Part shown: positions 18,867 through 23,737 of the stretch, piece by piece
Layout of the letters: every line of letters begins with the position of its first letter
Position numbering within the stretch: position 1 is the first letter of the stretch
Source of the DNA: an uncultured Spirochaetaceae bacterium
Lineage (GTDB): Bacteria > Spirochaetota > Spirochaetia > Sphaerochaetales > Sphaerochaetaceae
DNA: 56,217 nt
Assembly (NCBI GenBank): GCA_944388955.1
Contig: CALXKJ010000015.1
Span: 1-56,217, forward strand
Direction of reading: 5' to 3'
Notes under the pieces: generated by a model
Told to the model about the DNA's origin: nothing
Databases searched by the model: none
Seen by the model: the letters and a program-made list of their open reading frames with translations, nothing else
Translations under genes and position numbers: made by a program

Positions 18867-20570
18867 ATGAAGCATGTAAGTATCACACTGAAAGCGAGAA
18901 TCCTTTTTTCCGTCATATTATGCTTCATAATCATCTGTGTTCCTTCCTTCTTCCTTCTCTTCTCGCATATGAATCGGCTTGTATACGAGGAATCGATGGA
19001 GACCGGGGAAGCTCATGTCGTGAATGCCGTGAATCGTGTAAGTGAGGATCTCGAGGCATTGGTGACATCCGTAGCTTGGATGTGCGGTGAGGAGAGCATA
19101 GCTGATGCGCTTTCTTATAAAAGCATTGAAGATACTGGTGCCGCAATAGCGATTATCGAAGCCCAGAGTGAGGTTTCGACATATATGGCGGCATCTCCCA
19201 TAGACAGCAGTCTCAATAAAATCGTGATTTTCAATCCCGATACAAGAATGGGCTTTGAGTACGTGAAAGGACATTCCGGTACGCTTTATGATTCTTATGC
19301 CATCATGAGCACAGATGAATTCCGGAATCTCTCATTCCCGACCGGCGCCGTCGTGAGGTTATTCCTCACGCATTCCATAAATAATCCGGATGAGCTGGTC
19401 GTCGTGGCTTACGGCAGGATGAGAGAAACAGACGGCTATGTCTACGCCGAGCTTTCGGATAATGTGTTCAGGCCGTTATTCAGCTATCCGGATGTCGGGA
19501 ATATATATATCCTGTCCGATGGGATTTCCTATCCAGATGCAGTTCCTTCTGAATATATGGATGAAAACAACTGGACGATGGCAGAGTATCCATTTGTCAT
19601 TCCAGGAAGTTCTGTCGTGCAATTTGTTGACCGCGCGCCTCTGCGTCTTGCCTCTTCATATGGGCTTACTGTTTTTGTTGGGATACTCACAGCCTCACTT
19701 GTTCTTCTTATAGTCATTTCCGCTTTGCTTTCCCGCTATCTTACACGTACGACATCCAGGCTTGAGAAACACATAAAGTATCTGACGGAGACAAAGGATT
19801 TCGGCTCTGTGAATAAGTCTATAGAAGAAGGGAGCGATGAAGTCGCAGCAATCGGACGTACTGTCAATGCGATGAGCATCTCCATCTCCGAACTGCTGAA
19901 ACGCAATGAAATGCTTTTTGAGGAGAAGAAGAGAATGGAGATTGATATGCTTCAGCTGCAAGTGAATCCTCATTTCCTCTACAACACCCTTGAATCAATA
20001 CATTATCTTGCGGAGGTGCAGAAGAATGATGGCATTGCCAGAATGGCGAGAGGGCTTACGACGCTATTGAGAAATCTCGCTAAAGGCAGCAATGATCTCA
20101 TACCGCTCTCAGATGAACTCAAGCTCCTTGGCGATTATGATGACATACAGCAAGTGCGTTATATGGGGATGTATGAGCTCGTCTTCTCTGTCCCGGATGA
20201 GCTTCTGGGGTATCAGATACAGAAATTCACGCTGCAGCCGCTTGTCGAGAATGCAATATTCCATGGAATCGAGCCATCGATGCGATGCGGCACTATCGAT
20301 ATCTCTGCATCTCTTGATGGCTCAGATCTTTTCATCACCGTTGCTGATGATGGAGTCGGTATGACTCAGGAGGAGTTAAACCTCGCGTTCGAGCCGAAAA
20401 AACATTCAAAGACTGATATGACGGGAATCGGAATACGGAATATAAACGAGAGAATCCGTCTTATGTATGGTGATGGCTATGGATTGTCATTTGAATCAGT
20501 CAAAGGACAATACACTAAAGCGATAGTGCGCTTAAAGGCGGAGTGGTATGTACAGAATCCTGATAGCTGA
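18867..20570 (+). CDS. YesM-type sensor histidine kinase
   Basis: A 567-residue inner-membrane sensor kinase. Helix 1 (about 10-32) and helix 2 (about 258-285) flank an extracytoplasmic sensing domain of some 225 residues, followed by a HAMP linker (about 285-335). The His_kinase domain holds the phospho-acceptor motif NPHFLYNTLESIHYL, and the HATPase_c domain near the C-terminus shows VADDGVGM. This is the LytS/YesM class that pairs with AraC-type response regulators in polysaccharide utilisation. It is divergent from the uronide ABC/lyase operon and overlaps its response regulator gene by 23 bases. Its promoter is of the leaderless type. Confidence 0.93.
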   Translation: MKHVSITLKARILFSVILCFIIICVPSFFLLFSHMNRLVYEESMETGEAHVVNAVNRVSEDLEALVTSVAWMCGEESIADALSYKSIEDTGAAIAIIEAQSEVSTYMAASPIDSSLNKIVIFNPDTRMGFEYVKGHSGTLYDSYAIMSTDEFRNLSFPTGAVVRLFLTHSINNPDELVVVAYGRMRETDGYVYAELSDNVFRPLFSYPDVGNIYILSDGISYPDAVPSEYMDENNWTMAEYPFVIPGSSVVQFVDRAPLRLASSYGLTVFVGILTASLVLLIVISALLSRYLTRTTSRLEKHIKYLTETKDFGSVNKSIEEGSDEVAAIGRTVNAMSISISELLKRNEMLFEEKKRMEIDMLQLQVNPHFLYNTLESIHYLAEVQKNDGIARMARGLTTLLRNLAKGSNDLIPLSDELKLLGDYDDIQQVRYMGMYELVFSVPDELLGYQIQKFTLQPLVENAIFHGIEPSMRCGTIDISASLDGSDLFITVADDGVGMTQEELNLAFEPKKHSKTDMTGIGIRNINERIRLMYGDGYGLSFESVKGQYTKAIVRLKAEWYVQNPDS

Positions 20571-22104
20571 TGATGAGCCTATAATCCTTGCGGGTATCAG
20601 GCATATACTCGATTGGAAAAGCGTGGATGCGGAGCTTGTCGGCAGTGCGCGTAATGGCGCCGAGGCATATGCCATGATCGAATCCGAGCATCCTGACATT
20701 GTCATCACGGATATCAAGATGCCTGTGATGGATGGATTGGGGCTTGTTGAGAAATGCAGTACTGCATTCCCTGATATCGTCTTCATAATCCTCACTAGCC
20801 TTGCGGAATTCAGCTTTGCGCGTGAGGCCATCGGCTACGGTGTCTCTGACTATCTTCTGAAGACTGAGCTTGATGAGGATGTCCTCAGAACGGCGCTTGA
20901 AAAAGCTGAAGCTGAATGTGAGCGACGCCGTGGATATAGGGAGGTGAACGAGAAGGGCGACGGAGACAGGCTTTCATCTGAGATATCGAATCTGCTTTTA
21001 CTCAGGAATATCTCATCTGACACGAGAAACCTTCTTTCTCATAGTCAGGTCCTGTCATCATATGCTTTTGCTGCCGTTGCTTACCAATTCCCATCAGATA
21101 GCCTCGAGAAGCAATGGAGTGCAGATGATTACAGAAAGCTGCAGGAGTGGGAGGCGGATGTCCTTTCCAAGATAGTCTCATCGATGTTCTCTTCCTCGTA
21201 TCCTGTAATTCCATCAAGTGGCAAGCACACGGTGTTCATCTATCTTATCTCTGATATAAAACCTGAAACCTGGCAAGCTGTTGTTTCCAGGCTTGATAGC
21301 AAGATAAAGAGTGCTTCTGGTATGGTCACAGGCCTCGATACGGCACTATTAAGCACGAAGGTCTTTTCAGGAAGCGAAAGCCTGAAAGATGCGAGGATGG
21401 ATATTGAGAAGCTTCTGGTGTCGTATTATCTTGATAATCCTTCGCCGCATCCTGAATCGCTTGATGTGGATGTTGTTTTCCCCAAGCTTGAGCTTTCGAT
21501 CGGAAGTAAGGACAGTGTTGGCTGCCGCTTTTCCTTCTCTCAGATAAGAGATGCTGTGAAGAATACAGATCACAGTCTCAGCCAGTTTGAATTCTCTTGT
21601 TCTGCACTGCATTCAGCAATACAGAGTGGATTATCATCACTCGGATTATCTGAAAGCCGTGATATGCAGGATGCATTTGAAATGGCTGAGTTCATATCAA
21701 AACGCAGTGAAGTGCTGCTGTTTCTTGATGATGCTGAAAGTGCTCTTCTCAATCTCATAGAGAGCGCAGGCGGTACAGGTGGCAGTATTGCAGATAAGGC
21801 AAGGGAATATGTCCTGAAACATATCACAGAGCATATATCGCTATCTGATGTCGCTTCCTATGCCTGTGTCTCACCTGGCTATATGTCCAAAAGCTTCAAG
21901 CGCGTGATGGGTATGAGCCTTGTTGATTATATAAATCAGAAGAAAGTGGAGAAATCGAAAGAGATGATGAGAAATGGCGAAGACCGTATTGCTGATATCG
22001 CATCATTTTTAGGCTTCAGGAATATATACTACTTCTCTAAAGTCTTCAGGAAGGTTGAAGGCATTCCTCCTACTGATTATATAAAGAAGATAACAGGTAA
22101 ATAG
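20548..22104 (+). CDS. YesN-type response regulator, AraC family
   Basis: A 518-residue response regulator. The receiver domain is at the N-terminus (MYRILIADDEPIILAGI; phospho-acceptor Asp in VITDIKMPVMDGL, about residue 55). A long variable middle follows, then an AraC DNA-binding domain (about 420-515) with IADIASFLGFRNIYYFSKVF. It overlaps the yesM-like kinase gene, implying translational coupling. Its targets are probably the divergent binding-protein operon at 18695 and perhaps other lyase genes in the window. Confidence 0.93.
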   Translation: MYRILIADDEPIILAGIRHILDWKSVDAELVGSARNGAEAYAMIESEHPDIVITDIKMPVMDGLGLVEKCSTAFPDIVFIILTSLAEFSFAREAIGYGVSDYLLKTELDEDVLRTALEKAEAECERRRGYREVNEKGDGDRLSSEISNLLLLRNISSDTRNLLSHSQVLSSYAFAAVAYQFPSDSLEKQWSADDYRKLQEWEADVLSKIVSSMFSSSYPVIPSSGKHTVFIYLISDIKPETWQAVVSRLDSKIKSASGMVTGLDTALLSTKVFSGSESLKDARMDIEKLLVSYYLDNPSPHPESLDVDVVFPKLELSIGSKDSVGCRFSFSQIRDAVKNTDHSLSQFEFSCSALHSAIQSGLSSLGLSESRDMQDAFEMAEFISKRSEVLLFLDDAESALLNLIESAGGTGGSIADKAREYVLKHITEHISLSDVASYACVSPGYMSKSFKRVMGMSLVDYINQKKVEKSKEMMRNGEDRIADIASFLGFRNIYYFSKVFRKVEGIPPTDYIKKITGK

Positions 22105-22172: not shown

Positions 22173-22204
22173 TTGACAAATATCTACCAGGGGGGGGGTA
22201 ACCT
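22173..22204 (+). promoter_or_regulatory. Promoter with G9 tract between -35 and -10
   Basis: A perfect -35 TTGACA (22173-22178) is followed by a spacer that ends in nine G (22190-22198) and runs straight into TAACCT (22199-22204), a TAnnnT -10 candidate. With nine G the spacer is 20 bases; six or seven would give the optimal 17-18. The tract is thus placed to change promoter strength by slippage. Upstream A/T-rich -10-like sequences (about 22116-22140) could be an alternative promoter, placing the tract in a leader. Confidence 0.6.
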
Positions 22205-22239
22205 GACGATAGAAATCATACTCAAATGGAGGAATTGAA

Positions 22240-23688
22240 ATGAAAAAGATTTCTGTATTACTTCTAGCTGCTATGATGCTGTTTGCTTTCACTGCATGTG
22301 ATGGATCTACACCAGAAGCTCCGACGATGTCAGAAGAGGCTCTGGCTGAAGCTATCAGCAGCGCTGGCGACAATGGTACGGTAACGCTCACCGGCAATGT
22401 TACTGCCACAAATGCAATTGAGATTAGCAAGGCTATAACTCTTGATGGTGCTGGTTACACAATCACACGCGATAATTCAGGTGCTTCAACTGGAAACCCG
22501 AATGATGGCTCCAAGTCAGTTGTTTTTGTAAATGGTGCTAATGCAACAATTAAGAATCTTACAGTCTCTGGAACAAACCCTAGGGCAGCATGGGATGCAG
22601 GCGAATTCGGCATCATGATCTGCGAAGGTGCAAATGCAACACTTGAGAATGTCACTGTGACAAAGATGAATGCAGGTATTCAGGTATGCAGTGCAACAGC
22701 TACAGTTAACGGTACAATTACTGTCACAGGAAATGTATACGGTGGAATCAGCGTTGATCAGGAAAGTGGCAACAAAACCAAAGGTAAACTCATAATCTCA
22801 AATGGTGCAAAGATTGTTTGTGCTGACGAAAAAGTTCCTGCAATCTGGCTTGAGTCAACAGCAAAGGCAGATATCGTAGGCGCTGATGGTTTTACATCTT
22901 TTGATCGTAAAAATGATCAGGTTTACTACCTTGCTGAAGGACAGAGCAAAGATAACTTCTTCGATGCAAAAATCGGAGATACATATTATTTTACACTTGA
23001 TGAAGCTATTGCCAACGCAACATCTGGCGATACTGTAATACTTCTTCGCGATGCTTCTGGAAAGGGAATTGGAAGTAAAGATCAAGGTATTTATGATCAA
23101 AGTAGAGGTCGTCTGATTATTGATTTTAACGGCCATACTTATACAATGACAGATCCTGCTGTAGGTTCTACAGGAACTGAGACTCAGGCAATGCACTGGG
23201 GAACAGGCCTTGGCTCAGTCACAATGAAAAATGGAAAATTCCAGGTTGCAGAAGAAGCTGAAGGCGTGAAAATGGCTATGCAGAACTATATCGACTTCAC
23301 TGCAGAGGATATGATCTTTGATTTCAGCAATATTCCTGTTGGACGTTATGCAGGTTCGCTGTATGGGGATTACAACGGACTCGAGATACCTATGTTCAAT
23401 AACAATAAAGCCGGTGTAATGAAGCTTAATAAGTGTACTGTGATAATGCCTGCAGAGAGCACTAAAGGAATCAGTGCAGGTGGTAAGAGTGTTACATTAA
23501 CTGACTCGACCATCGACGGGTATATCTGCCTTGAGCCAGAATGCTCAGTAACACTTAAAAATACAGGAGCAAAAGATGTTGTTGCATATTTTGATGGTGA
23601 TACGGTAACAAGTACTGTGGAGGAAGACGGTAGTACTACTTACAAATGTGTTGATGCTTCTGTAACACCTGTTGCTTCGGCTAATTAA
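22240..23688 (+). CDS. Beta-helix surface lipoprotein
   Basis: A 482-residue predicted lipoprotein. The signal peptide ends in the lipobox FTAC (Cys20), followed by an acidic linker. The body is rich in short Val/Thr/Asn strands with pectin-lyase-like right-handed beta-helix rhythm, such as LTGNVTATNAIEISKAITLD and NATIKNLTVSGT. There is no recognisable catalytic motif, so adhesion or glycan binding is as likely as lyase activity. It starts at ATG 22240 after ATGGAGG and stands alone, between the YesN-type gene and a terminator. A G9 tract in its promoter suggests phase-variable expression. Its G+C content is lower than that of the flanking sugar genes, which may indicate transfer. Confidence 0.8.
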   Translation: MKKISVLLLAAMMLFAFTACDGSTPEAPTMSEEALAEAISSAGDNGTVTLTGNVTATNAIEISKAITLDGAGYTITRDNSGASTGNPNDGSKSVVFVNGANATIKNLTVSGTNPRAAWDAGEFGIMICEGANATLENVTVTKMNAGIQVCSATATVNGTITVTGNVYGGISVDQESGNKTKGKLIISNGAKIVCADEKVPAIWLESTAKADIVGADGFTSFDRKNDQVYYLAEGQSKDNFFDAKIGDTYYFTLDEAIANATSGDTVILLRDASGKGIGSKDQGIYDQSRGRLIIDFNGHTYTMTDPAVGSTGTETQAMHWGTGLGSVTMKNGKFQVAEEAEGVKMAMQNYIDFTAEDMIFDFSNIPVGRYAGSLYGDYNGLEIPMFNNNKAGVMKLNKCTVIMPAESTKGISAGGKSVTLTDSTIDGYICLEPECSVTLKNTGAKDVVAYFDGDTVTSTVEEDGSTTYKCVDASVTPVASAN

Positions 23689-23707: not shown

Positions 23708-23737
23708 GAGACTCCCTGCGCAACCGGGGAGTCTCCT
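23708..23737 (+). terminator. Terminator of the lipoprotein gene
   Basis: GAGACTCCC (23708-23716) pairs with GGGAGTCTC (23727-23735), a perfect 9-bp stem with a 10-base loop followed by CTT. The T run is weak. Confidence 0.65.

Follow-up and report, generated by a model that had tools for sequence, protein, structure and literature searches.

Examination of the 56,217-nucleotide window (contig 15 in an assembly of 2.1 Mb and 33 contigs from an uncultured Spirochaetaceae bacterium) reveals a lipoprotein gene preceded by a promoter with a run of nine Gs between its -35 and -10 hexamers. Promoters of this kind number about a dozen in the genome and hundreds across the genus. We consider it highly likely that the promoter, of sigma70 type, has in its G9 tract a spacer prone to slippage, which would alter the distance between the -35 and -10 elements and thereby phase-vary the lipoproteins encoded downstream. 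Direct support exists for the architecture, its non-randomness, its conservation, its association with lipoproteins and the instability of tract length among near-identical copies. New here are the scale, with a whole family of promoters devoted to lipoproteins, and the connection to lipoprotein-body turnover; none of the papers searched links Sphaerochaeta with phase variation.

The window promoter and its gene

On the forward strand the promoter consists of the -35 hexamer TTGACA (22173..22178), conserved across the promoter family; an 11-bp constant spacer part, AATATCTACCA (22179..22189), whose family form is ten bases ending in ACC; the slippable G9 tract (22190..22198); and the -10 hexamer TAACCT (22199..22204), which abuts the tract and conforms to the family form TANNNT. 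Direct reading gives a spacer of 20 bp (TTGACA-N11-G9-TAACCT) that contains an uninterrupted homopolymer of at least eight bases, and the description and coordinates offered in an earlier note on this DNA, namely TTGACA, 20 bases ending in G9 and TAACCT, are exact. A GGAGG ribosome-binding site (22228..22232) precedes the ATG at 22240 of a 482-residue open reading frame (22240..23688), and a hairpin, GACTCCCTGCGCAACCGGGGAGTC (23710..23733), is a probable terminator. All these features lie on the forward strand.

The N-terminus of the protein, MKKISVLLLAAMMLFAFTAC (22240..22299), is a lipoprotein signal peptide with the lipobox cysteine at residue 20 and belongs to the leader type common to the family, which bears out the earlier assignment of the gene as a lipoprotein with a lipobox. 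The accompanying claim of a beta-helix stands for the N-terminal part alone: a single-sequence AlphaFold model is confident at about residues 25-200, where short strands form a beta-helix-like arrangement, and poor beyond 204, while its Foldseek matches are weak (E 0.02-0.1), the best ones being mostly parallel beta-helix lyases. Accordingly, a parallel beta-helix is predicted for the N-terminal part from the model. A Pfam search with the window protein returned no family and, together with the predicted N-terminal beta-helix, gives no indication of homology to Tpr or OmpW.

Upstream of the promoter lies a gene for an AraC-type response regulator (20548-22104) with clear orthologues in relatives. 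None of the 25 scorable regulator loci in these relatives carries a TTGACA-tract promoter with a lipoprotein downstream, and conservation of the window locus across relatives was rejected on this count; at one such locus (contig L357) there is a G9 run without -35 or -10 elements, followed by the contig end. By this comparison the locus is lineage-specific, and apparently unique to its genome among the genomes compared. Distant relatives of the window protein in the genus often have the same promoter immediately upstream of their gene. Given that no orthologue carries the window tract, variation of the tract is seen at the level of the family, beyond the reach of orthology at the window locus itself.

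A promoter family associated with lipoprotein genes

The 2.1-Mb genome contains three G7 runs, one G8 run and 21 runs of G9-G11, so that the distribution jumps at nine, whereas a first-order Markov estimate (2.1 Mb, both strands) predicts about 51 runs of at least seven and 2.1 of at least nine. With 21 runs of G9 or longer against about two expected, and G7 and G8 almost absent, these long runs, including the window tract, are not a product of chance. The pattern TTGAC-N{5,20}-GGGGG-TA has 11 matches in the genome and its reversed control none. The sixth -10 base, which the pattern leaves free, is T in all 11 (about 7e-7 by base frequency), and the genes behind them comprise eight for lipoproteins, two for other secreted or membrane proteins and one for a small protein of cytosolic type. 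An exception to the lipoprotein rule is the tract promoter at about position 3001 of L004, which precedes a gene for a small non-secreted protein (MKRVVLIGCGSKKKDG...).

The TTGAC-N-G-TA layout recurs in 41 of 48 genomes (species) of the genus, with reversed controls near zero, and, out of 395 genomes of the class, 73 (in 20 of 133 genera) contain a stricter form of it, with no reversed-control match. Named matches are mainly from uncultured Spirochaetaceae and Spirochaetales MAGs. Others come from elsewhere, for instance from MAGs labelled Alphaproteobacteria or Lachnospiraceae, and suggest that the layout may arise in other phyla too, a few chance matches being expected at that scan size. 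The family consensus is TTGACA, ten bases ending in ACC, G9 and TAGNNT. In 40 genus sites picked with no condition on the sixth -10 base, this base is T 37 times (P of about 1e-17), and TANNNT directly abuts the tract in 37 of 40; the tract usually lies 35-45 bp from the start codon. In two sampled sets, 62 of 70 and 38 of 40 downstream genes encode a lipobox, as called by a simple sequence rule rather than a trained predictor, and several of the remainder are contig-end fragments or outer-membrane-type proteins.

Other G9 and G10 tracts in the window's genome are situated inside coding frames (L001 at about 3001, with the tract on the minus strand; L016 at about 3001; L020, 67-75; L005, 67-75). 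One of these open frames is helicase-like and 1235 codons long, and others are outer-membrane-type genes, suggesting that translational phase variation might operate in the same genome. An insertion-sequence-like element with 25-bp ends (TGAACTAACCCCCTGAAGGTAGACA) is present in three copies, seen as pairs of contig ends (L022, L023 and L021, on C3, C6 and C29 of genome G000, with L024, L026 and L025, on C20, C7 and C14); the pairing is inferred from the apparent 3-bp target duplications (ATA, ATA and AAA) and from reading frames. All three copies share one orientation and are followed, about 4 bp further 3', by a G9 run. One lies within a lipoprotein promoter, with TTGACA on one side and the G tract plus -10 on the other, and the other two reside in putative outer-membrane protein genes with a coding-region tract. 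Further right ends in relatives (loci L257, L262, L263, L266, L268 and L269 among those with element ends) abut G9 or longer in six cases and G3AG6 in one, with two abutting neither. The full-length element was absent from a viral collection, and no transposase was found for it, two candidate loci being without a recognisable one.

Tract length, spacing and alternative readings

Across 134 sites in the genus the tract is G9 in 74, G10 in 25, G8 in 19, G11 in three, G12 in three and G6-G7 in ten. Sets of promoters from one genome with identical TTGACA-N usually differ in the number of Gs (for example 9,9,9,8,9,8 and 9,10,9,10,10). In genome G035 one promoter has G9 and another G11 although their upstream bases agree at 200 of 200 positions; in G033, a pair with 60 of 60 identical bases carries G9 and G10. 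At two orthologous promoters of the sister species G026 and G028, which are syntenic over 5 kb of flank, tract lengths differ: G11 against G9 at one, G10 against G8 at the other. An orthologous G6 promoter of G032 and G035 is of equal length in both, with a 99 % identical flank. Tract length is thus hypervariable in the promoter family, among identical paralogues as well as sister-species orthologues, and the earlier idea of a length-variable promoter finds its counterpart in a tract whose length changes where the rest of the copies stays the same. Slipped-strand mispairing affects long runs rather than short ones, and the combination of unstable long tracts with a stable G6 is the pattern expected of it.

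The short-tract members of the family also point to the spacing at which these promoters might work. Eleven family lipoprotein promoters with only G6 in a mixed spacer have spacings of 17 (two), 18 (eight) and 19 bp (one), whereas the 117 sites with at least eight Gs have a mode of 19 (57 sites), with 26 at 17-18, 81 at 19 or more and ten at 15-16. The share at 17-18 bp differs accordingly (10/11 against 26/117; Fisher P = 1e-5), in counts that are not fully independent as some of the promoters are orthologous to one another. Given that the G6 copies are at 17-18 bp and the slippable ones peak at 19, we infer that 17-18 bp is the working (ON) spacing and that most assembled states are at least one G too long. 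For the window promoter, at 20 bp, loss of two or three Gs would be needed to reach 17-18 bp, and this earlier proposal agrees with the spacing of its short-tract relatives. One interrupted tract (GGGGTGGGGG, L171) is kept at 19 bp, which counts against the spacing model. As a separate matter, a general optimum for the genus was sought from exact TTGACA-N-TATAAT pairs and set aside: the distribution was noisy, and only 16 stood out (28/141), not 17-18.

The analogy with Treponema pallidum drawn earlier is likewise upheld, in that the promoter is of the TP0126 kind and the 17-18 bp spacing matches the 17-bp optimum there. According to PMC7864442, transcription of TP0126 is best when its poly-G gives a spacing of 17; eight or fewer Gs are permissive at tprE/G/J; the tprL tract has 7-11 Gs, with nine commonest and eight stronger than ten; and Neisseria meningitidis porA is reviewed as having a poly-G in the -35/-10 spacer whose length alters transcription. 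TP0126, an OmpW homologue, shares with the window promoter a poly-G between -35 and -10 that sets spacing, a spirochaete host and, presumably, a surface protein gene; however, it is a single outer-membrane protein locus, whereas here about a dozen copies per genome share one consensus and mostly precede lipoprotein genes. The likeness to tprE/G/J and tprL is that of a promoter poly-G with a length effect, and these belong to another gene family, of which there is no homologue here. Likewise, porA shares the poly-G in the spacer but is a single porin locus of a proteobacterium, in contrast to a promoter family common to many lipoproteins. Comparison of the sequences thus supports the window promoter as a probable phase-variable promoter of the TP0126/porA kind.

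Three other readings deserve consideration. The tract could be a fixed element, read by a protein such as a regulator or special sigma factor or acting through DNA structure, with G9 preferred and changes in length incidental. G9 is the commonest tract whether the remaining spacer is N7, N8 or N10, which indicates that tract length reflects slippage equilibrium or selection for G9, and not spacing alone; moreover, a T. pallidum CRP homologue acts with poly-G at tpr promoters (PMC7864442), and a small helix-turn-helix (HTH) gene is present in many of the operons described here. Nevertheless, we regard this reading as unlikely, given that some lipoprotein genes of the family have a mixed spacer of 17-18 bp with no more than G6, and that near-identical copies span lengths from 8 to 12. 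It is less likely still that the true length is always G9 and that the differences arise from assembly error. All the comparisons use consensus assemblies, mostly MAGs, in which homopolymers are error-prone and single-G differences could partly be assembly error; against this, two- and three-G differences (G9/G11 and G9/G12) occur beside an otherwise identical spacer, the short G6 tract of the orthologous pair does not differ in length, and a nine-base run is well inside a short read. Finally, the tracts could be mutational by-products or integration hot spots, for instance for the adjoining insertion element, with no regulatory role. While that element adjoins G tracts in promoters and coding genes alike, 41 of 48 species have the tract exactly positioned between -35 and -10 ahead of a single class of gene, and we find this explanation highly improbable.

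Returning to the tract as a length-variable spacer, slipped-strand mispairing would add or remove Gs and thereby change the distance from TTGACA to TANNNT. Near 17-18 bp the promoter would be active, and at 19 bp or more it would be attenuated or off; the sequenced state of the window, at 20 bp and two or three Gs too long, would belong to the latter class. About a dozen genes per genome, mostly for lipoproteins and drawn from a genus-wide set, would switch independently, and a population would carry many combinations of presumably surface-exposed lipoproteins. The benefit might be evasion of immunity or phages.

Apparent replacement of lipoprotein bodies and implications

The sister species G032 and G035 share four fully covered family loci (L331/L332, L334/L333, L336/L335 and L338/L337) with syntenic 5' flanks of 1.1-5 kb at 92-95 % identity. 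Within these loci the two sequences match across promoter and leader as far as about +135 to +150, a little beyond the lipobox. They then cease to match in the mature lipoprotein and, immediately behind the stop codon, return to 97-100 % identity. This conserved 3' stretch holds a small gene, some 62-77 codons long, for a protein with a homeodomain-like HTH; Pfam HTH_23 scores just above threshold in two of three of these small proteins tested. A hairpin precedes the gene, with a sequence that varies from locus to locus. Such a gene lies behind the lipoprotein in 23 of 40 testable tract loci, two of them in the window's genome (examples are L012 at about 4300, L008 at about 3800 on the minus strand and L337 at about +1340 from its promoter); none was found after the lipoprotein gene at the window locus. 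Past the HTH gene, one of the four loci remains syntenic; in the others, synteny breaks down or the contig ends. No mature part was found to be shared between different loci of G032 and G035 among the loci collected.

These observations suggest that whole mature lipoproteins may be replaced between a conserved leader and the HTH gene, with short-read chimerism at the repeated leaders as a possible alternative source of the pattern. A tentative and rather speculative extension is a two-layer system of surface variation, in which phase-variable poly-G promoters choose the lipoproteins made, recombination between leader and HTH gene replaces mature bodies at fixed loci, and the HTH protein might feed back on the shared promoters, for instance by limiting the number that are on.

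Among spirochaetes, poly-G switching of promoters is a phenomenon described at individual loci in the syphilis agent. In most species of this uncultured genus the module is standard equipment of lipoproteins, and its rules, namely which spacing is on and how populations distribute, can be tested by comparison and with existing metagenome reads, the short-tract copies fixed at 17-18 bp serving as natural controls. To judge from the genomes compared, it is very probable that DNA slippage switches many surface proteins of this genus randomly on and off.
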